Assembly (NCBI RefSeq): GCF_000313135.1
Contig: NW_004457598.1
Location: forward strand, 142,026 to 206,025
Reading direction: 5' to 3'
Length of the DNA stretch: 64,000 bases
DNA from: Acanthamoeba castellanii str. Neff
Lineage: Eukaryota; Discosea; Longamoebia; Acanthamoebidae
Shown here: piece by piece, positions 2,177 through 21,584 of the stretch
Numbering within the stretch: the first letter of the stretch is position 1
Layout: every line of letters starts with the position of its first letter
Position numbers and translations under genes: made by a program
Notes under the pieces: model-generated
What the model was told of the DNA's origin: nothing
The model's input: the letters and a program-made list of their open reading frames with translations, nothing else
Databases searched by the model: none

Positions 2177-2726
2177 TGCAACACTATTAGCAAAAACAAA
2201 ATAGAGCCGTTGCTTCAGACCGGTAAATTTGGCGCGAAATTTTTTTCCTGCCGTTAACCGCGCAGTACGCGGTGTGCGAATGGCCGGCCACCGATGACCG
2301 TAAGCCCGGTCCGCGCACCGCGAGAGGAAATAACACGGTAACGTTCTCCGTGCGGGGGGGGGGGTTGAACCGTCTTTCCTCAGTCTTCGGGCCGGCCCAG
2401 TCTTTTTCAGCACAGCCCACCACAGTACCCCACCACCGTACGCGTACCTCTCAATCTGGCTCCACTTACCCTCTACATCGCATCACATTCGCATCACATG
2501 TGCCGATCACAATCAATCCTCGGATCATCGGCCCAAATCCTCGGTCTTTCACGAATTTCTACAAATTTCACGCTCGGTGATCTGCTGAGTAGCAGCCATC
2601 TGCGCTCATACAGGGAGTGGGCGAGATGGCCCTACTCGAGCAAGCTAGTGATCCTCTCGCTCGGGCTTGTCGTTCCTGTGCTTATGAGAGTGATGTTTTG
2701 TCTTGTCCTCTACTGCAGACATCAAC

Positions 2727-3113
2727 ATGAGCACTCGCGGCAAGAAGGTCGGCGTCGCCAAGAAGAAGACCATCAGCAAGAAGAGCGCCAAGGGCAAGAA
2801 GGAGAAGGACCCGAATGCGCCCAAGAGGCCGAAGACCGGCTACATCTTCTTCTCGGCTGAGGAGAGGGTGAAGGTGAAGGAGGATAACCCCGATCTTGGC
2901 TTCGGCGACATCACCAAGCAGGTGTCGGCCAAGTGGAAGGACATGTCGGAGGAGGAGAAGGAGCCCTACCTCACGCTCGCCAAGAAGGACAAGGAGAGGT
3001 ACGAGAAGGAGATGTCCAAGTACAAGACCGCCTCTGCCTCCAAGAAGAAGAAGAAGGCCGATTCCGACGAAGATGACGATGAGGATGACGATGACGACGA
3101 TTCCGACGAGTAA
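2727..3113 (+). CDS. HMGB-type high-mobility-group protein, single HMG box
   Basis: Single coding exon, 128 aa. A lysine-rich N-terminus (about residues 1-28) leads into one HMG box (about 29-98) starting DPNAPKRPKTGYIFF, with the expected aromatic and proline positions and the WKDMSEEEKEPY segment. The tail is lysine-rich and then a run of Asp/Glu/Ser, as in yeast Nhp6-like and animal HMGB proteins. HMGB proteins bend DNA without sequence specificity and act in chromatin and transcription. The start is the ATG nine bases after a likely 5' UTR splice acceptor at 2718; an upstream in-frame TTG is not a credible start. The gene faces the convergent RasGEF gene. Confidence 0.93.
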   Translation: MSTRGKKVGVAKKKTISKKSAKGKKEKDPNAPKRPKTGYIFFSAEERVKVKEDNPDLGFGDITKQVSAKWKDMSEEEKEPYLTLAKKDKERYEKEMSKYKTASASKKKKKADSDEDDDEDDDDDDSDE

Positions 3114-3668
3114 GCAGGCGCACCAACACTGCCGCGACTGCGAGATTCCCCGTCGTATGCGGCATCAGCTTTTCGATCGATTCTACTTCTCTATCTATCC
3201 CTCATCCACCAACCCACTCAAGATCATCAAGAAGAGGATGCAGCACTCGGCATAACAAAACAACATCTGTTCGATGCAGCTCGGAGTTGAGCTCGTTCGT
3301 TTTGTAAAAATACAGTGAACACCCAGAACCACCTCGACCTCCATCTTCATAAGTAATACTCACGCTGATCTTGTTCTCGGAAGCGTTGCCAAGAACGTTC
3401 CTGCGCGATCGTGCAGCAATAAATAAATAAAATATAATAAATAGAGAGAGACGAATTGTAATAATATTTAGTAAATAATAATGAAACACACAGCCGCCGT
3501 CGCACGGCCGACGCGACCATCATCGCCCTCCTTCCGTCCATCGCCTCGTGTGGTGCCCGCAGGTCCGATCCGATCGATGGTGGCGCACAGTTGAAGCTTC
3601 CAACGATTGATGAAGAGGAACCGAGAGCGCTTGACTCTTTTGTAGTTGGAACCTGGCCCTCGGCACAC
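3114..3668. other. convergent intergenic region, 3' UTRs
   Basis: Lies between the stops of the HMG-box gene and the RasGEF gene. It contains an A/T-rich stretch at about 3418-3482 with several AATAAA-like words that may serve 3'-end formation. ORFs crossing it lack any recognisable domain. Confidence 0.5.
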
Positions 3669-6600
3669 CTACTGGATGTCTGACCGTCCAGCGTTACGAG
3701 GCTCGACCTGCGCCACTCGAACGTCAGCATTTGTTTGACCGCACACACCGCACACACGCACACACCGCACAGTGTGGCTCGTAGTTTGTACCTTGAGAGA
3801 AAGGCTATACAGTTGTTTTTCATCGAGCTGGACGGGCTCCTTGAGGAAGTTCTGGATCTCCTCGACGCGCTGGAGGTTGTAGCCGGTCTTCTGGAACCGC
3901 TCCAGGAGGGAGATGACCCCGTAGACCAGCTTGTGTTTGGAGAAGTTGATCAGGTTCTCCACCTTGTTTCGGTTGCCGTCCTCGATGAACGTCAGATCCT
4001 GCAGACACACGCCACTGTATGTTTTCACGCACATGCACACATGGCACACACACGACATGTGAGTAGAAAGCAAATTAATAATAATAATAATAATAAAAGC
4101 AAAAGCAAAAGCAAAAGCAAAAAATCAAAGCGCGGGGAGACAGCGTACATGTAGGGGATGGCGGGAGGGTTGCTCGAGGTGAGCCTGACTCGGTATTGCT
4201 TGAACGACGAGTTCATCGACATGAGCTCCTCCAGCTCTTGGAGCGCAGTGGCCGACGTCTACAGGTGAGCAAGCGGCAAGTGAGTAAAACCACCCGCGCG
4301 TCAGCACCACCACAAACAGTGCAAACAACATGTTAATTTCTTCGCTCTTGAAAACGCGAAACGGACCTTGGGCAGGCGGGCCTTGGTCCACTGCAACCGG
4401 GCGACGGCCGAGTTGCTGAAGCCGGCGATGAACGCCTGGAGGAGGTGGTAGTTGCCCAGGTCGCGCAGTTCCTCCGCCGTACGGATGAAGCGCGTGAGCA
4501 GCTTGACTCGCTCTCTGATTTTCTGTTGTGAACGACACACAAAGCACCGGGGGAGAGAATGGGGGGGGGGATTGGAAAGTGTGTGAGTGCTACTAGGCTC
4601 GGGGACAAAGGCACTGCAGTCGCCGGGCGAAACGAACCCTCTGTTGGAGGAGGGCGGTGGAAACAGCGCGCGAGATGCTGTTGAAGTATTCGATGAAGGC
4701 CATCAGGTTGGGTGCCAGGTGCTGCGTCGAGGGCTTGGACCACGGCTGCCCGAAGAACTCAAACAGCTGCAACGCCAACAAAATGGTGAGAACAGCAGCC
4801 TCGCACCACTCGGAGCGTGGGGGGTGGGGTGGGCTTACCCTTATGGCTGCGAAGAGCTCGTAGGAGCGGATGGTGAGCTGACGCGCGAGTTCCACCTCGT
4901 CAACGATGAACCAATTTGGCCTATCCAACGATCGAGGCACCTACAGCAGTCCCAGCGAAAGAAGAAGTCACATATGTCAGTCACACCACAACCCACCAGT
5001 GCAAAGAATGCCAACGAGACGGTGGCCTTACCCGAGGCAGCGGGGCAAACTCCATCGACACCTGCTTTCCCTTGGCGCCGGTGCCCATCGTCTGTTCGAG
5101 GGAAGCGTGAGCACCATGCACACAAAGACGATGTGCCCCATTGTGATTGTGGGGGGGAGCGTACGTTGGATTCGATGGACTGGAGGATGCGCTGGTGCAG
5201 GACCAACGCGGACGAGGTGCCGCCCTCCTTGACCATTGTTTGGTTGAGGAACTCAATCAACCGCTCCAGCAGCTGGTCCTCGTCGTAGAAGTCGTAGAAG
5301 TACTCGTCCACCCACACCTTGAGCAGGTACAGGATACGCCGCTGCGTCTTCTCCGCCCTGCCCTTGCCGTCTGGATTACCCAAAACCCCAAAGGGACCGT
5401 CAGCCCGTTGCGCGGAGAAGGAACCTTGTGTGTGTGTCGTGTGTAGTGTGCGCGCGTGTGTGTGGTGCGCACCGGCTTCCTCTGGCGGTGGCGGAGGAGT
5501 GGGGGCTCCTTCGCCCTCCTTCTTCTTCTTTTTGTCCTTCTTGTCCTTCTTCTCGGGGGTGGTGGAGCCCTTGGACTCCTCGGCGGGTGGCGGCAGGGAC
5601 GCCCTCTCGATCTCCTCGCTGCAGGTGAGGTAGCGCTTGAGCAGGTAGTCGAGCACCACCCGCGACGAGGTGAACGCGTGATGCGTGAGTAGGAACGCCT
5701 TCGTGTACTCGGGCTCTATCGTAGGCACAGCGCACATGCGTCAGCAGCGCAAATGAGAAAGCGGAGTGTCGTGTCGTGTCGCGTACCGTAGATGGGCGTT
5801 TCGATGAGGTGGTCGATGAGCGACGAGAGGGACCCGGCCTTGACCTCGGTCGTAGAGCCTTCCTCGAAGGCGAGCTTCTTGAAGCTCTCGTCGGGCATCT
5901 CCTCGCCGCCCTCCTCGCCGTCGCCGCCGCCGCCGCCGGGTCCCTGGGCGGCCTTGGCCTCCTCCTCCTTGTCGCCCGTGGCTCCCGCCAGCTCCTCCAC
6001 CGAGGCGAACACGCCGTTCTTAACGAAGAGCAGACGAGAGTAGGCCTCTACCTGCTGTGCGTGGAGCGACAGCTTCTCGTCCAGCAGCGCGACTGTGCGT
6101 GTGGGGCGGGGGGGGAGGGGCAGGTAAGCACCGCGCGCACGTGGCGCACAGGCGGGAAGGGGGTGGGGGGGGGGTGGCGGCTGACCTTCGTCCGGGGTCT
6201 TGCGGTAGTAGAGCTCGTACTCCTCGCCCTTGGCGTTAACCTTGGACGCGATCTGGGTCTTGACCTCGCACACGGGCACCATGAAGTCCACCGGGAAGTG
6301 TGTGTAGATGGGCATCTGGGCCTGCCCGTGTCAACACACGCACATTTGAGAGAGTGAGATTCGGGTTGAGCTTCATTGATCAGGCCACAGCCTTGGAGGG
6401 GGGAGGGGACAAGCCGACTGTACCTTGTTGAACAGCCGCGAGGCGGAGCGCGAAAAGGTGGCGTACTTCTCGTTCTTGGTCATCTGCGCCGATACCTTCT
6501 CGCTGTACACGAGCACCATGATCGGCTTCCTTCGTACCAGGTAGCACAGGCAATCCTACGGTAGCGGAGGAGACACGCTCGAACATCAATCCCGTGTGCC

Positions 6601-12531: not shown

Positions 12532-14317
12532 TTAGGCGGAGGAGGAGCCGGGTCCAGAGGAGGAGACCTCGATCTTGATGCCGCGGAGGATCTGGCCCCA
12601 GCCGATGAGCCGCCAGTGCTTCTCGACGCGTCTGCTGAGCGCGATCTTCTCGCCCTCCATGGTACACACGGGAGAGATGAGGACGATCTTGGCAAGATCC
12701 TTCTTGACGGCGATGACGCGGCCACCGGTGGAGGTGGAGCCAATGTTGACCATGAGGGTCTCGCCCTTGCTGAGCTTGGTGACGCGGCTCTGCTTGCCGT
12801 CGCCTTCGGCCTTGACGCCGAGCAGGCGGCGGAGGAGGAAGAAGTTGACCTCAAGCTCGGTGAAGATGTCGGGCAGCTTGCCGACCTCACCCAGCACCTG
12901 GCCGACGAGCCTGTCGCCGCGGCAGAGGGTGGGATCGATCTTGGTGCCGACGCCGATGAGACCGCCGGGCACGGCGAACTGGAGGTCGTTTCGCTCGGCG
13001 AAGAGAGAGACGATCTTGGAGAAGATGGGCACGCACTTGACGTTGCCCTCGGCGTCCCTGGCCACGATACCCGGCCGCACCTCGATCTCGTCGCCGATCT
13101 TGAGTACACCCTGGATGATGCTGCCGCCCGCCACGCCGCCCTTGAGGTCGTCCACCTCGGTACCGGGCTTATTTACATCGAACGAACGGATCACGATCAG
13201 CCGGGGCGACGACGTGAAGTCCCTCATCGGCACGGGGATGCGGTTGACGATGAACTCGCACACCACGTCGATGTTGTGCTTCAGCTGGGCCGAGATGGGC
13301 ACCACGGGGGCGCTCTCGGCGATCGTGCCTGGAGTCAGAAGTGGAGAGGTTAGCGACTGATTGGGCACCAGAGAGAGGAGCGATGGATCAAGCGAGGCAT
13401 ACCCTTGACGAAGGCGAGGATCTGCTGGTACTGGTCAAGCGCGGCCGCCTCCTTGACGAGATCGATCTTGTTCTGGAGGATGATGATGTGCTTGAGCTTC
13501 ATGATCTCGATGGCAGCCAAGTGCTCCGAGGTCTGCGGCTGAGGGCAGGACTCATTGCCGGCGATGAGGAGGAGAGCGGCGTCCATGACGGCGGCACCGT
13601 TCAACATGGTGGCCATGAGGATGTCGTGGCCGGGGCAGTCGACGAAGGAGACGTGCCTCACAAGGCGCATCATGCCCTTGCAGTTGGGGTTGTCGCTCTG
13701 GAACACGTCCTCCTTGTGGCTGCCGTGCGAGCAGTAGCCGCCGGGCTTCTCTCCGAGCCACTCGTCGGCTTTGTAGATCTTGGCGTTGGCATAGCCCAGC
13801 TTGATGGTGATGTTACGCACCAGCTCGTTCTTGAAACGCACAGTCTGGGCAAATTGATCGTAGATGATTAGACAGTGCGCCACGAAAAATTCGTTGATTA
13901 TTCGGGGGGGGGAGGTGATTGCAGCCCTTTGTGTAGCATGCAGGATTGCCACTGCGCAAACTTGGGGAGGCAGCACTCATAACCAAACGTGTGGAAATTG
14001 TGAAGTACAGTTGGGAGGATATCGTACCTGGACGCCAGAGATGGCCTTGACGACGGTCGACTTGCCGTGGGCGACGTGGCCGATGGTGCCGATGTTGATG
14101 GTGGCCTGACGCGAGATGACCTCCGGAGAGAGGGGCGTCAACTTGGCGACGTCGAGAGTGGCAAGGTCCTGCTTCGCCAGATGCGAAGTGTCGAGCTTAT
14201 CCTCGCCCTCGATCGTGAACGTTGTGATAGACTCGTCCGCCTGTTATGAAGATGGGAGGGATCTGTGAGTAATTGATGGAAAATTAAAGGTGCCAGTGGC
14301 ACCAGACGCCAATCCAT
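12532..14317 (-). CDS. EIF2S3: translation initiation factor eIF2 subunit gamma
   Basis: GTP-binding subunit of eIF2, which carries initiator Met-tRNA to the 40S ribosome. Exons 14317-14303 (tentative), 14240-14028, 13844-13403 and 13328-12532; about 488 aa, close to the 472 aa of human eIF2 gamma. GTPase motifs are present: GHVAHGKS, the switch II DCPGHD, NKID and SAQ. The conserved [11 protein letters not shown] segment, the beta-barrel domain (RSFDVNKPG) and the C-terminal [18 protein letters not shown] are all visible. The body is certain. The first exon, encoding MDWRL before ADESITTF, is chosen because an ATG and a GT donor in phase lie just upstream of the acceptor at 14241; another short first exon is possible. 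Confidence 0.95.
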
Positions 14318-15097
14318 CCAAATTTGATCACCCACGTTTATATTTTCGGCTCCTATCTCTCCGTTCGAACTCTCTATGCATCATGATGGTTGATCTTCTT
14401 CATCCACTCATTTTCGCCCCCTATGCGTTCTCATTCTCCGACTGCTTTCTTCGATGCACTCGAGATCCATGCGCTGCAGCTTCTCAATCGGAGGAGGATG
14501 CGCAAGACGTACCATTGTTGCCGTGTGGAAGCAAAGAAGATGAACCTCAGATCCCACAAGCAGCAAAAGCCGGAGCTGGGTTCCAATCCCCTAAATTTCC
14601 CGTTTTCGTGAAGAACAGCAAGGAAAAAAATATGTTTGGCCCAGAAATAAAGCAGACAATGGTTGTGACACCTGGGCTGCTTGCTGTGACAGTTGCTGGC
14701 AAACCTTCCAGCACACCATGAAGCTAATCAAGCCCATTGGATCTTGTTATGCACAAAGCACACCTAACTCTTATAGCAATGTGCAAGCTTGCTCCTGCAG
14801 ACATCAATGATATCCAGCTGAGGTAACACAAACAACACCTCACTCCTTGCAACTATTGGCCAAAGGCTGCAGTGGAGCCCTCATGTTTATGTGTCTTGTA
14901 AGTGTTATTTCGTTTCGTTTCGTTTCAATTTGGTTCTGTTTACATTCTGGGTTATGGAAACTTGCCCCTTCATTTGGAGCGCAGCTTCAGTGAACTTGGC
15001 TGGCTACAAAACAGCGCGTCCGGTTCATCTTATTGGTCTCCACAACAAGCACTCCCATTCAAAGTCATCAGAGCGAATTGCCAGTTATATTGAAAAT
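14318..15097. other. divergent intergenic region between eIF2 gamma and the E2-LRR gene
   Basis: Promoter space for two genes that face away from each other. Bases 14600-14890 are lower in G+C and resemble the other A/T-richer islands. A CGTTT repeat lies at about 14911-14925. A plus-strand ORF at 14290-14721 has no domain and ends without a plausible splice partner, so it is not called a gene. Confidence 0.5.
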
Positions 15098-18000
15098 ATG
15101 TGGCGTCCTCAGAGATCCGAAGTTAGTACGTGCCTATCGCCTTCAAATTGTTTTCGGCAATTCCGATTCTTATTTTGTAGTGGCTCAAATCCGAGATTGA
15201 GATTAACTTGGTGTTGGTGTTCGTTGCTCACAGGGGCCAAGGCGGGCAACAAGTCGCAGACATCGGCGGTGAAGCGCCTTTTGCAGGACCTCAAGCACAT
15301 GCGCGAGCATGTTGTGCCCACCGTCGGCGTGGTGGCCCTTCCTCTGGAGAAGGACCTCTTCACCTGGCACTGCAACATCAGGGGTCCCAAGGGCACGCTC
15401 TACGAAGGCGGTGGTACGTACCTCCCACCTCTCTCAACCCGACGCAAAGCGAATCCTCTCACCTTGATTCCGTACCGTGTAGTGTTCCACTTGGTGCTCC
15501 ACTTCCCCGAGAGCTACCCCTACGATCCGCCCAAGGTCACCGTGTGCACCACCCTGCAGCACCCCAACGGTTCGTGTTGTGTAGTGCTATTGGTGGCCCT
15601 CTCCAACGTTGATGTTGTTCTTCCTGAGTCCTGAGTCCCTTTACGTGGCGACTTACACCATCTTGCCCCACAGTGTTCAACGGGTCGATCTGTCTCGACA
15701 TGCTTCAGCCCGGTGACGAGCAGGAGAAGTACATCGGTTGGAGCTCGGCCTACTCCGTGCAAAGCGTGCTCATCCAGCTCCAGGCGTTCCTCTTCGAGGA
15801 GTCGCCCACCATTCGCGCCGAGGACTGCCGCAAGGCCGTCGAGGCGGTACGCCCTTGCACCAACCATGATGAGTAGATGGTGCGTTGCTCACACGACACA
15901 CACGACCACACACACGACCACACACACACGACACACGACACACAGGCGAACAACTTCACGTGCACGTCGTGCAAGCACAGGCCGCTGCGCTCGTGGCCGG
16001 TGTTCCCGTCCTACGAGACCGACGCCTTTGTGCTGAACAAGGCCGAGACCGAGATCATCAAGGATGAGCTGGTCTGCTTCCACTCCAAGCGCACCTTCCA
16101 GGAGGACTGCCTGGGCTTCGGTATCTCGTACCACAAGAACATCAAGACGGGCGACATCCAGGAGTACGACTGCCCTCCCTTCCCCCGCGCCTCTGTTCGG
16201 AAACCACGATACAAGTTCGTTGCTAACGTAACTCAACACAACAACAGCATTTCCTCGCCGCTGGACCTGCTCGGCGTGCGTGCCTTCATGCGCGAGAACA
16301 TCAGGAAGTCGTCCATCAACGAACCCTTCACCCACTGGCTCCCTGGTAACGCCTCCCCTCCAGGCATCTGCCCAAATCAGTTCAGTTTTGGCTCACAACC
16401 ACCAATACCACATCTAGTCTACCTCAACGACGAGCACGGAAAGAAGGCGTTCCATTTGGCCCAGCGGAGCATCAGCATGCTCTGCGCCAGCAACACGCGC
16501 GAGTTCAAGCCCCGCATGGCGCTCAGCGTGTTCCCCAAGCTGATGAACACGATGATCCTGCACATCATGAAGGGCCAGATCCACGCGTCGGTCAAGGCGC
16601 TCGAGGGCTACTGCGCGTTCCACCAGATGTTCCTCAAGTTCCTGGAGACCTACCCCGAGCTGCACCAGGAGTGCCGCGATCTGGTCCACGGCTTCCTCAA
16701 GTCGGAGGAGGCCCGGCACAAGACCAAGGTTGAGTCGCTGGGCGAGTTCATGTGCTACCTCACCGTCACGCCCGAGGTGCAGTGGAAGGACATCGCCTCG
16801 CTCCTCATCAACGAGCAGTCCGACCGCCAGGTCATGTGGATCATCAAGGTTCACGCACTCCCTCAACCACCCTCGCCGCACACGCACGATCGCACACGAA
16901 CAACCGCACACACGTGCCTGACATTCTTCTCTATATATCGTACAGGACTACCCGCACCTGGGTACTGACCAGGAGGACGCGGCCGTGGACAAGGTGCGCG
17001 CCAACGTGTCGTTCGACGCGTCGATCATGGGCATCCGCCACATCCTGTTCCACTACTACTTCATGGAGCACGTCGCCCGCCCGCTCGGCGGCACCATCGC
17101 CGAAATGTCGGCCAACTACGAGCGGTCGTTCGGCCGGCCCACCAACAAGATGGTGGAGAACATGCAGCAGGCCTTCCGCGAGATCAAGAAGGTCAAGACC
17201 CACAACGACTACTTCTCGCGCATCGGCCTGCCGGTGGTGAGCGAGGAGCAGCTGGTCGCCTGGCTGCGCAAGTCGGTCACCAACTCGAAGCGCCGGGACT
17301 ACCACGGCGTCGAGGGACCCAAGGTCCCCTCCGCCAAGGAGCTGGCCGAGGAGTCCATCAAGAGCGTCGTGCCGCTCGAGACCCTGTGCGTAAAGGTACG
17401 GTGTCCATGATCGACCAATCATTTCACAACGCGCCGCGTACAGTGCTGACGTCACGACACACAACACACGCGACACAATATCGATAACCAGGACGAGAAG
17501 GGCGAGCTCAAGCTGCACGACAATGAGGAGCAGTGGAAGGAACTGTGCAACTCGCGCTGGGGCTTCAACTCGCTGCCGGCTCACTACACGGCCGGCTGGC
17601 GCACCTTCTACCTGCAGAACAACCTGCAGGACCTGGTGAGCTCGCTCAACGAGTATCCCGACTTCAAGCACTTCTACCAGACGCTCGACCTGTCGAGCGA
17701 GGGCCTCACCCTGCTCGAGCTCACCCTGTTCGCGCCCAAGCAGCTCAAGTCGGGCTACTACTGGCTCACCGCGCTCCTCACCCGCCTGCCCAAGCTCCAG
17801 TCGCTCAAGATCTCGCGCGGACCCGACGGCGGCCTCGGCCTCAAGGGCGTGCGCTGCCTCGTCAAGGGCCTCAAGAACAACAAGTCCTCCATCACGTACG
17901 TCTCATTCATGACAACACGACACACGATCCACCACCAACACACGAAACACACGCACGAGCTGACGCGTCTTTTTTATGTTGACCTATAGGTCGCTGGACC

Positions 18001-18350
18001 TGTCGTACTCGGGCATCACGTCGGAGTGCTGCGAGCTGCTCGCCGAGGGCATCCTCGCCTCGACCCACCTGCAGCGCCTGTCGCTGGAGGGCAACGCCAT
18101 CCGCCAGACTGGCGCCAAGGAGCTGAGCCGCGTGCTGTGGGACCACGAGTGCCTCACGGAGCTCAACCTGTCCAACTGCGACGTCAATGACGGCGGCGCC
18201 AAGGAGCTCGCCGACGGTCTGCTGGCCAACAAGCGGCTCGTCAAGCTCGACCTCAGCCGCAACGGGCTCGGCTACTCGGGTCTCCGCGCCGTCCTCTACA
18301 ACCTGGCCTTCAGCCCCTCCATCAAGTGCGCTCCTGCTCCATTTGCAAAC

Positions 18351-18387
<37 letters not shown>

Positions 18388-21364
18388 GATGCTAACCGCA
18401 CACACTCACATAGGGAGCTGAACTTGTCGCGCGTGTCGGGTTCCGGGTCGTCGAGCGATCTCAACGAGCTGGGCGAGGCCCTCTCGAAGCTGTTCCGCAT
18501 CAACGTGACGCTCAACCGGCTCAACTTCTGGGAGACCAGCATCGCGCCGGCCTTCACCGCGAGCGTGTTCGAGTCCCTCCGCGGCAACCGCGCCCTGCGC
18601 CACCTCGACATCAGCCAGATCGGCACCATCAACAGCGACCAGCTGGGCCACCTCGGTGCGGCCCTCACCAAGAACAGGACCCTGGCTTCGCTCCTGCTCG
18701 AGAACAACAACATCTCCGGCCACGGCCTCGAGACCCTCTACAAGGCTCTCCTCGTCGAGAAGGAAGAGGTACACGACACGACCAACGACACGACCAACGA
18801 CACACGATGACAAACACAATGACACACGATGAGAGTTTAGCGCTGATTTGATGTCGATACGGTGTGCAGGAAAAGGGCAAGGCGGTCAACGACGACGAGC
18901 GCACGCGCAAGGAGAAGCGTCGCGATGAGATGCTGGACAAGGTGAAGGAGGTGGAGAAGGAGTTCCACCTGAACCTGGTCGAGTTCAACCTCAAGAACAA
19001 CGGGCTGGGCTCGGCGGCGGGCAAGATCCTGGGCAAGCTCGTGACCGTGGCCTCTTCGCTCGAGGTGCTCACGCTCGACCACTGCAGCCTCGACGCCAAG
19101 GCCGGCGAGACGCTTGGCCTCGCCCTGGAGACCAACACGCGCCTGCGCACCCTCAAGCTGCGCCACAACACGCTGGGCAAGGAGGGCGCCAAGGCCCTCG
19201 CGGCCGGCCTCCGCCACAACAAAACGCTGCAGGTGCTCGACCTCAGCGGCAACGGCATCGGCGTGTCCGGCGCCCGCGCCATCGCCGGCACCCTCGCCGA
19301 CAACGCCTCGCTCACCGAGCTCAACCTGTTCGGCAACCTGGTCGACGTCGACGGCGCGCGCGACCTGGCCAAGGCCCTCGCCACCAACAAGACGCTGGTC
19401 AAGCTCGACCTCGGCCTCAACCGCATCCGCGACAAGGGCGCCCAGGCCATCGCCCAGGCCATGGCCTCGGCCGAGCAGCTCACCGAAATCGGCCTCAAGC
19501 TCAACTTCATCAAGGACCACGGCGCCCTGGCCGTGGCCAAGGCCGTCTCCGTCTCGCCCGCCATCCGCAGCTTCAAGCTCGCCGGCAACCAGCTCGAGGA
19601 CGAGACCCTCCTCGCCATCAACGACCTCATCAAGAGCCCCCACATCTCCTTCGATCTCGCGCCCCGCGTCGCTCTCCTCGTACGCTCTCTCACACTGCTC
19701 CTTGTTACTGTCTCGACACCGCACACGCACACGCAAGTGCGCTGACTGTGTGTGTGTGTGTGTGTGTGTGTGGTGAAGGATCCCGAGCGAGTGGCGCGCA
19801 GCGTGTGGGTGACGCCCCTGCCGGCACGCGTGAAGAAGGAGAGCGTGCGCAAGCTCTTCTACGACGCCCACTGCGGCGTGGTGCTCAACGTGGCCATCCA
19901 GGACCACAGGACCAAGACCAGCCCCTCCAAGGCCCAGTACGCCTTCGGTACGCTCCTACCGCCGCCCTTCTTCTTCATCTTCTTCTTCATCATCTTCACC
20001 ACCACCACCGTCACCGTCACCTTCCTGACCTGTGTGTTGCGTGTATGCGTACAGTCGAGTTTGCCCACATCAACTCGGTGACTCTGGCGTTGGACCTGTC
20101 GGCCAGCGGAAGGGTACTTTCTTCTTCCTCTTTTATATGTACCTCTTTATATGTATATGTTTTTGTGTGAATATGTTGATATTTAATTTTTATTGATAAT
20201 TTATTTTTTTCATCATAGGCCAAGGTCGACGGACAGAAGGTGCGGATCTACCGCGTGGGCACGCAGAACAAGACGGCCCAGAGCGAGGCCGCCGGCAAGC
20301 CCACCGCAGGTCGGCGCGAGGAGCCCCAGCGCAGCAGGCCTGCCGTCCGCGGTGGCCGTGGCGGTGGACGTGGCGGCGGACGCGGAGGTCGCGGTAGGCG
20401 CTAAACTCCTTCTTCTCGCTCTTTCGCACGCACGCACGCACGCTCGCTCGCTCGCTCATGTACTGCTCAGCTCTCCACCGATACGCACAGACCAATAAAA
20501 CGGAGACTGTACAACACGCTCTCGCCATCCACCCCCCCGAGCTCATTGGCCTCTGCGTGTCGTGTGCGTGTCGTGTCGTGTCGTGCGAATACAGACTTCC
20601 AAAGGGACACACCGCGCAGGCCATTTGTGTTTCCTTCAGAGCGGGCCGGTAAGACCCCGACCTATTCCCGGCCCGCGCCCGCACCCAAGCCAGCGCCCGT
20701 GCCGTTCCGCGAAGCTCGGCCGCGACCGTTGTCGTCGTCGTCTTCTTCGTCGGCGTCGACGTCGGGCGGTGGTGGTCGCAGCAGGGAGACCCAGGGAGCG
20801 GCGACGCGCAGGCAGCTGGCGAACAACAAGGAGAGCCTGTGGTACCGCGAGGAGATGCGCCGGGCGAGCAGCATCACCGATCCGGTCGACAAGATGCTGT
20901 TCAAGTGCGTTGTCGAACGACAAAAGCGCACACGTGTGCGCACACGCAAGGGCTCACCCAACGTGTGCGTGTGCGGTGGTGCGTGCGATGATGTGCTGTG
21001 GCAGGCTGAGGCTTCAGGAAGTGGTGGAGGAGACGCCGTCAGGGGCCTTGCCCTCGTTGTCCGTCTACGAGACCTTCTTCGCTCCTCCGCCTCCTGTACG
21101 TCCCCCTCCTTTCCTCTTTTTTTTCCCACCCCAGCACCGACTGTGCGCTTTTTCTCACTGGTGGCTCGGCGTGCGTGTGCGTGTGCGTGTGCGTGTGCGT
21201 GTGCGTGTCATGTATGTCGTGTATGTCGTGTCGTGTTGGCTTGCCTGTGGTGTTGGGGACAGCTTGAAACCGAGTTCCGACCTTCGCCCCCCGCGAACTG
21301 GGACGTCAGTCCGGAGGCGCAGTGGGAAGCGGCGCCCGAAGAGTGGACCTCGTCCGAATGGTGA
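15098..21364 (+). CDS. E2 ubiquitin-conjugating enzyme fused to LRR, RRM and RGG regions
   Basis: Predicted 1491-aa protein. Exons 15098-15125, 15234-15413, 15483-15569, 15674-15846, 15946-16163, 16248-16345, 16418-16848, 16946-17395, 17492-17895, 17990-18325, 18414-18768, 18870-19679, 19779-19947, 20055-20113, 20219-20393, 20595-20904, 21005-21095, 21263-21364. Residues about 10-156 are a UBC fold with HPN and the catalytic Cys near 105 in NGSICLDML, so it should accept ubiquitin or a ubiquitin-like protein. A C-terminal E2 extension follows (a CxxC near 162-165, then SPLDLL and FTHWLP). Ribonuclease-inhibitor-like leucine-rich repeats span about 640-1190, an RRM about 1191-1275 (RNP2-like VWVTPLP, RNP1-like YAFVEF), then an RGG-rich tail. 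If the donor at 20394 is not used, translation stops at 20404 (1327 aa). The 20595-21364 segment has no start codon in its frame and joins in phase, so it is included here. Confidence 0.8.
18351..18383. repeat. (CA)n in an intron
   Basis: Uninterrupted CA dinucleotides inside intron 18326-18413 of the E2-LRR gene; polypurine-poor, sense-strand CA. Confidence 0.9.
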
Positions 21365-21584
21365 AAGCAGCCGGCTGGCCAGCAACCAACCAAACCGTGC
21401 AACACGCGACGAACGTTACATAAAACCCGATGCTTGAGTACAATGTCCCATTTTTGATGGTTTCAGTTTGTGCGCTTGGAGTGGACCTTGGGCGGCGTCT
21501 TGTCCGTGGGGTACCGCCACAGCCCTTTGAGTGGTTGGGGTTCGGTCGTGAGCACGCGACGACGAAGAAGAAAAGGGCGCGGCA

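Follow-up and report, generated by a model that had tools for sequence, protein, structure and literature searches.

A predicted Acanthamoeba protein joining an E2 domain, a UBR4-like extension by fold, leucine-rich repeats, an RRM-like domain and an RGG tail

A gene for an E2 domain, an extension, LRRs, an RRM-like domain and an RGG tail

The window analyzed here is a stretch of 64,000 nucleotides from Acanthamoeba castellanii str. Neff (contig NW_004457598.1, positions 142,026 to 206,025), and the gene in question lies on its plus strand. The predicted protein starts with the UBC domain of ubiquitin-conjugating enzymes (E2s), followed by an extension domain, leucine-rich repeats (LRRs), a domain resembling an RNA recognition motif (RRM) and a tail of RGG repeats. 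A first-pass annotation of this DNA had described such an in-frame spliced chain, which is borne out by the open reading frame and by full-length homologues. The coordinates of all parts are collected in Table 1.

Table 1. Parts of the predicted gene and protein in the window
Feature	Position	Strand	Residues and remarks
Whole coding region, 15 exons	15098-20404	+	1327 aa; stop TAA 20402-20404
Exons 1-8	15098-15125, 15234-15413, 15483-15569, 15674-15846, 15946-16163, 16248-16345, 16418-16848, 16946-17395	+	
Exons 9-15	17492-17895, 17990-18325, 18414-18768, 18870-19679, 19779-19947, 20055-20113, 20219-20404	+	
UBC (E2) domain	15234-15846	+	~20-156; HPN 96-98; predicted catalytic Cys105 at 15691-15693
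Extension domain	16066-17317	+	197-529; starts ELVCFHSK, ends near YHG; predicted RING-UZI fold resembling that of UBR4, whose zinc site is not kept
LRRs, ribonuclease-inhibitor/RanGAP/NLR type	17747-19679	+	~641-1190, charged insert ~916-952; limits approximate
RRM-like domain	19797-20251	+	~1197-1277; RNP2-like VWVTPL, RNP1-like YAFVEF
RGG tail	20348-20401	+	1310-1327; 4 RGG, ends RGRR at stop
Exons 16-18 of the first-pass annotation	20640-20904, 21005-21095, 21263-21364	+	Open chain, Pro/Ser/Arg-rich, Trp/Glu-rich end (EWTSSEW); probably not part of the protein

A homologue search with residues 1–1327 scored 7994 candidates and returned 67 proteins at E ≤ 0.001. P0001–P0010 span 92–99% of the query with 36–76% identity (nine at 95–99%, the tenth at 92%), P0012 covers 98% at 28% identity, and P0011 can be aligned colinearly with the others, its best local alignment covering only 45% of the query. 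Two of these 12 aligned homologues carry organism names, Willaertia magna (38% identical over 98%) and Naegleria fowleri (37% identical over 96%), both with database labels of hypothetical or UBC core domain-containing proteins; the rest include metagenome proteins. The search for homologues with the same order of parts (UBC, extension, LRRs, RRM-like domain, RGG) was thereby successful, in Heterolobosea as well as in metagenome proteins. Since Willaertia belongs to the Heterolobosea (Discoba) and Acanthamoeba to the Amoebozoa, this order is, judged from the sequences, common to distant lineages, through descent or transfer. Because the homologues keep it, the chain can also be read as a single gene and a real fusion, not an artefact of the gene model.

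All 14 introns of the 15-exon model are of the GT..AG type, and the frame is open across all 14 junctions. The model starts with the ATG at 15098, and the resulting protein start (MWRPQ..) is common to P0002, P0003 and P0068. Exons 2–14 carry G or C at the third codon position in 84–97% of codons (GC3 0.84–0.97). The junction between exons 5 and 6 (16163|16248, GDIQ|DISS) agrees with the homologues; a version read straight through at this point was rejected, as its 28 additional residues are present in none of the 12. CA/GT-type simple repeats were noticed in introns 18326–18413 and 19680–19778, and at 21160–21240.

The first-pass annotation had continued the chain through 18 exons to 21364. 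This version is open, a multiple of three and 1476 residues long, but its exons 16–18 have no counterpart in any of the 12 homologues (alignment of P0001–P0012). No Pfam family matches them at E ≤ 1, their GC3 is 0.74–0.84 versus 0.84–0.97 in exons 2–14, and no ATG in their frame is found between 20405 and 20640. Eleven of the 12 homologues end in a short Arg-rich stretch (RR/RRR at or adjoining the end) where the frame of the window protein meets its stop codon; the twelfth, P0010, stops sooner. The single plus-strand AATAAA within 15000–21500 is located at 20494, 90 bases past the TAA. Because the homologues lack exons 16–18 and have their Arg-rich ends at the same stop, and because of the AATAAA at 20494, the most likely end of the protein is 20404, earlier than annotated. 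The C-terminal extension by exons 16–18 was rejected, as these exons probably are not part of this protein; the region 20640–21364 could be an alternative 3′ end or a piece of another gene.

The UBC domain shows both the profile and the fold of its class, with a match to Pfam UQ_con (E 1.4e-27, residues 25–143). Because all 13 rows (the window protein and 12 homologues) retain His96, Pro97, Asn98 and Cys105, it can be predicted to be a catalytic E2, in agreement with the catalytically intact UBC of the first-pass annotation. By phmmer, it scores 83.7 bits with a Naegleria E2, 83.2 with UBE2B, 81.2 with UBE2A and ∼79 with UBE2D3. An assignment to the RAD6 type was considered. RAD6-type E2s are at the top of the fold comparison, but within ties, and the Arg trio of RAD6/UBE2A (R7, R8, R11) is not conserved. 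At the position equivalent to R11, the 11 covering rows show R in seven, Q in two and K in two; the equivalent of R95 is G and that of S97 is S in 13 of 13.

The ribonuclease-inhibitor-like repeats that had been described are recovered both as a profile match (LRR_6, E 1.3e-32) and as a horseshoe like that of ribonuclease inhibitor. Behind them, the motifs VWVTPL and YAFVEF, which we take to be RNP2- and RNP1-like, lie in a domain with the strand/helix order and the RNP aromatics of an RRM, although the curated RRM_1 cut-off is missed. RRM_1 is detected at E ≤ 0.01 in nine of 13 members (best 1.5e-8); it is not listed at this threshold in a scan of the 1476-residue version. In the model of P0013, itself without an RRM_1 hit at E ≤ 0.01, residues 998–1079 are arranged as β-α-β-β-α-β, with ten-residue means of the predicted local distance difference test (pLDDT) of 73–83 in seven of nine blocks and of 65 and 47 in the others. 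All 13 members have W or Y at the position of W1200 and F at that of F1246; at the position of Y1244 they have Y, except for F in P0003 and H in P0011 and P0012. The RRM of the first-pass annotation therefore stands in part: the hits in relatives are clear and the P0013 fold agrees, but the hit in the window protein is below threshold, and we regard an RRM there as weak but plausible. Within the last 60 residues, RGG is found in eight and three or more RG in nine of the 12 homologues; the tails of P0010 and P0012 show no RG.

The extension domain and the UBR4 module

For residues 197–529, Pfam returned no family at E ≤ 1 except the edge of a chance-level match to Trm112p (E 0.18, residues 161–207). 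A search with residues 157–540 found 13 proteins among 1643 candidates, including one of Arcella intermedia (Amoebozoa) and several with an F-box. The extension alignment was built from 30 homologues and the window protein (31 rows); it leaves out P0009, P0013, P0016–P0017 and P0022–P0067, and P0021 was dropped by a length rule. At 16 positions, 95% or more of the 31 rows agree, and conservation of the extension is at least that of the LRR part in 11 of the 12 full-length homologues.

The ubiquitin ligase (E3) UBR4 contains a module that consists of a hemiRING with one zinc, bound by C4838, C4841, H4887 and C4890, and an 11-helix UZI part, and its cognate E2s are UBE2A and UBE2B (excerpt of PMC10873205). 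In the model of P0072, the Arcella relative, the extension matches the fold of this hemiRING-UZI module (PDB 8b5w, 8btl) along the module length, with both the RING-like and the helical UZI portion. When the two are paired by order and spacing, the anchors C4841, L4853, R4896 and P4921 of UBR4 follow in the same order as C200, L212, R248 and P261. The partner E2 may likewise be of the UBE2A/UBE2B type. Unlike UBR4, the window protein carries its E2 in the same chain and, by our pairing, has neither the C2HC zinc site nor the acid that binds UBE2A, and sequence homology is not demonstrated. On present evidence, the extension would thus fold like the UBR4 E3 module, whereas membership in the UBR4 family is not established. 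The “E2 extension” of the first-pass annotation is therefore present, but its resemblance to an E3 module, which through the relative's model suggests an E3-like part within the chain, had been missed. LRR proteins fill the VIA-align list obtained with the model of P0013, which therefore barely probes the UZI half and the RRM.

Other proteins with the extension, and giant viruses

A UBC domain is present in 25 of the 30 extension homologues. The five others are P0070 and P0073, which start without Met, and P0071, P0074 and P0080, which start with Met. Between UBC and extension, P0069, P0072 and P0027 have an F-box above the Pfam cut-off and P0014 and P0018 one below it; further partners of the extension are S1 (P0014, P0019) and VWA (P0014, P0027), and P0015 joins CCCH, RGG and N-terminal LRRs to UBC and extension. 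P0014, P0015, P0018 and P0027 are thus modular E2 proteins, in which the extension links the UBC to VWA, S1, N-terminal LRRs, a zinc finger of the CCCH type or a tail rich in Gly and Arg. P0072 shares UBC and extension with the window protein (39% identical over 88% of the searched region) but differs by the F-box between them and by the lack of an LRR-RRM-RGG part. Chlamydomonas sp. UWO 241, a green alga, has a protein (P0021) in which a UBC-like stretch and the extension each occur twice, the extension copies scoring 140.8 and 180.5 bits.

The genome of A. castellanii itself (38.4 Mb, 250 contigs) contains two further extension loci, C232 and C131. Both show UBC matches, and their F-box-like matches are weak, with 19.8 and 20.6 bits against a cut-off of 24.3. 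A profilin reading frame of this genome is identical over 125 residues to profilin II of A. castellanii (PDB 1f2k), in keeping with an origin from Acanthamoeba or a very close relative. At the second locus (G000:C232:142874-145200; L021 about 2375-4707), a UBC match is followed by a Cys-containing stretch, an F-box-like stretch, the extension and an RS/SR-rich stretch (DSRDRSRSRSRGRDRY); the frame with the end of the extension continues into the latter, so that a tail as in RNA proteins stands behind an E2. The third locus (G000:C131:258100-262200; L022) shows a UBC match, a middle region, an F-box-like stretch and the extension. The UBR4 module itself gave a best E of 0.64 against this genome; Pfam E3_UbLigase_R4 found no match there, and as 14 control genomes also gave none, absence is not shown.

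Foldseek comparison of the P0072 model with viral models returned long matches, 18–22% identical, from Terrestrivirus (E 1.9e-37), Hyperionvirus (8.0e-26) and Tetraselmis virus 1 (3.0e-25). The models in question (A0A3G4ZRM4, A0A3G5A9Q2 and A0A2P0VP69) are annotated as E2 ubiquitin-conjugating enzyme. Their query TM-scores are 0.46–0.54, compared with 0.13–0.15 for plain E2s, which argues that the match extends beyond the UBC; the root mean square deviation of 11–24 Å is as expected for chains with differently placed domains. When viral contigs were scanned by sequence with alignments A3, A1 and A2, none of the 43, 116 and 76 pattern matches was confirmed as a relative, so that it is by fold only that giant viruses seem to have the UBC-extension pair.

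A possible E2–E3 enzyme at RNA and its alternatives

We lean, by a small degree, toward the reading that an E2 is fused to a UBR4-like E3 module in one chain that is tethered to RNA, with the LRRs serving substrates. The order of parts, the intact E2 residues and the single gene can be read from the sequences, whereas the UBR4 module fold of the extension is seen only through the model of a relative. An ubiquitin-activating enzyme (E1) would charge Cys105 with ubiquitin, and the RING-like/UZI module would hold the charged E2 in cis, without the zinc site of UBR4, in a way that favours transfer. Protein substrates would be selected by the LRR arm and tagged on RNA or a ribonucleoprotein (RNP), for example ribosomes or RNA granules, where the RRM and RGG tail would put the enzyme. 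An E2 that chooses its targets through LRRs at RNA had already been suggested in the first-pass annotation: intact E2, LRRs, RRM-like domain and RGG indeed occur in one chain, and the roles of LRRs and RNA stay putative. More tentatively, with the balance somewhat against it, we propose a protist ligase family in which E2 and UBR4-like module (without the UBR4 zinc site) form a self-sufficient core in one polypeptide that is combined with varied targeting parts (LRR, RRM and RGG, or F-box, S1 and CCCH) and is shared with giant viruses; the version in the window would tag LRR-selected proteins at RNA sites and need only E1 and ubiquitin from outside.

A number of observations weigh against this E2–E3 reading, the main doubts being the lost zinc site and UBE2A-contact acid, the extension proteins without UBC, and the placement of the UBC on the extension. 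In relatives of UBR4, the zinc ligands are kept in 84 of 84, 84 of 84, 101 of 101 and 101 of 102 rows (counting only rows that cover each position), whereas the extension lacks the C4838, C4841, H4887, C4890 site and has one invariant Cys, C200 (31/31). By our pairing, which is based on the spacing to a conserved Leu, C200 corresponds to C4841, and C4838, H4887 and C4890 fall on E197, V239 and F242. Cys or His occurs in at least half of the rows within residues 197–290 only at C200 (31/31), H202 (22/31), H258 (18/31), H268 (28/30) and C284 (17/29, C or H). Judged by these alignments, the C2HC site of UBR4 is gone; some members, including the window protein, may have another metal site. The acid E4843 of UBR4, which binds R7/R11 of UBE2A, is paired with H202, and the E2 has K23, R24 and Q27 in place of R7, R8 and R11. 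The P0072 model is that of an Arcella relative with a predicted TM-score (pTM) of 0.54, and it does not give the placement of the UBC on the extension. A profile comparison (hhalign) of the extension with UBR4 reached a probability of 1.4% and a score of 23.1, compared with a mean of 15.4 and a maximum of 24.5 for shuffles (three of 200 at 23.1 or more) and 20.3 for reversed UBR4. Homology of the extension to UBR4 therefore rests on fold. A profile search of PDB sequences with the extension (E ≤ 10) likewise contained no UBR4 chain; alignment A3, which includes UBC pieces, matched nine E2 chains, and alignment A5 gave one chance match (PsbQ' at 0.39). In P0074 and P0080, both of which start with Met, the extension is preceded by an F-box-like stretch and a UBC is lacking, so that the pairing of UBC and extension is not obligatory. 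Finally, RRM_1 in the window protein reaches only E 0.0084 and 16.4 bits, below the cut-off of 20.7 bits.

Some of these points would fit an E3-independent E2 of the UBE2O kind, in which substrates would be bound by the LRR arm itself, with the extension as no more than a scaffold that has a decayed RING-like part and no ligase function. Both the zinc site and the E2-contact acid of UBR4 are lost, and UBE2O is credited with E2–E3 hybrid activity (excerpt of PMC10393103). We nevertheless consider this rather unlikely, because UBC and extension have stayed coupled in 25 of 30 proteins, which otherwise differ widely, and because the extension is conserved at least as well as the LRR part in 11 of 12 homologues, with 16 positions at 95% or more of the 31 rows. 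The extension or a neighbouring part might also dock the E2 on a separate E3 or a cullin-type complex. The F-box of relatives hints at an SCF (Skp1-cullin-F-box) complex, with the LRRs replacing the F-box here: it lies between UBC and extension in P0069, P0072 and P0027 and, below the cut-off, in P0014, P0018 and both paralogues, and P0074 and P0080 combine an F-box-like stretch and the extension without a UBC. However, no F-box family is found in the window protein or the 12 homologues (none among nine families matched at E ≤ 0.01), and the module matched by fold is one that binds an E2 itself, which makes such docking distinctly improbable.

A further alternative disputes the RNA step only and is compatible with an E2–E3 enzyme: the RRM-like domain could be an RRM that binds protein, with the RGG tail acting as a signal for condensates or methylation. 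The sub-threshold RRM_1 score and the tails of P0010 and P0012 without RG would agree with this, but the RNP-type aromatics (positions of W1200, Y1244 and F1246) speak against it, and we judge it on the unlikely side. That separate E2 and LRR/RRM genes were wrongly spliced together, which the first-pass annotation had named as refuting its chain, is a general risk of gene models. It is contradicted here by nine homologues aligned over 95–99% and a tenth over 92%, in the same order, on separate contigs and including two named Heterolobosea, as well as by the frame open across 14 of 14 junctions. We rejected this artefact on the full-length homologues and regard it as very improbable indeed.

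Returning to a fused E2–E3 enzyme at RNA, the nearest known kinds of protein are E2/E3 hybrids and RNA-binding ubiquitin ligases (RBULs). The hybrids UBE2O and BIRC6 are not known to owe their activity to a module like that of UBR4, nor to have an LRR-RRM-RGG part; RBULs are E3s that borrow an E2. Like the window protein, UBE2O and BIRC6 have a UBC inside a large multidomain protein, which in excerpts of the literature is said to have E2 and E3 activity (PMC10393103 for UBE2O). RBULs resemble it by combining a ubiquitin-transfer module with an RNA-binding domain (excerpt of PMC5707401), but the window protein has a built-in E2, and its E3-like part is not a canonical RING. Among the matches listed from titles and abstract starts of open-licence PMC papers, neither a UBC-LRR-RRM protein nor UBC-F-box-extension proteins of protists are described. 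This fits the earlier statement that no described protein has this set of parts, yet databases already contain unnamed proteins with the UBC-extension-LRR-RRM-RGG architecture, including two from Naegleria and Willaertia.

Should the E2–E3 reading hold, there would be a compact relative or look-alike of the giant ligase UBR4 and its E2, with both in one chain. This would provide a small natural model of E2 activation by a RING-UZI module, show whether a RING-like fold works without the zinc site of UBR4, and give a testable function to an extension domain without a Pfam family match here. It would also establish a direct physical link from RNA to ubiquitin tagging. The UBC-extension pair suggested by fold in giant viruses may bear on the interplay of virus and host.

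A scan of the window with Rfam at gathering scores gave no matches. On the minus strand, a reading frame at 13977–14243 contains GHVAHGKST and presumably represents the beginning of a GTPase of the translation-factor class, similar to eIF2 gamma.
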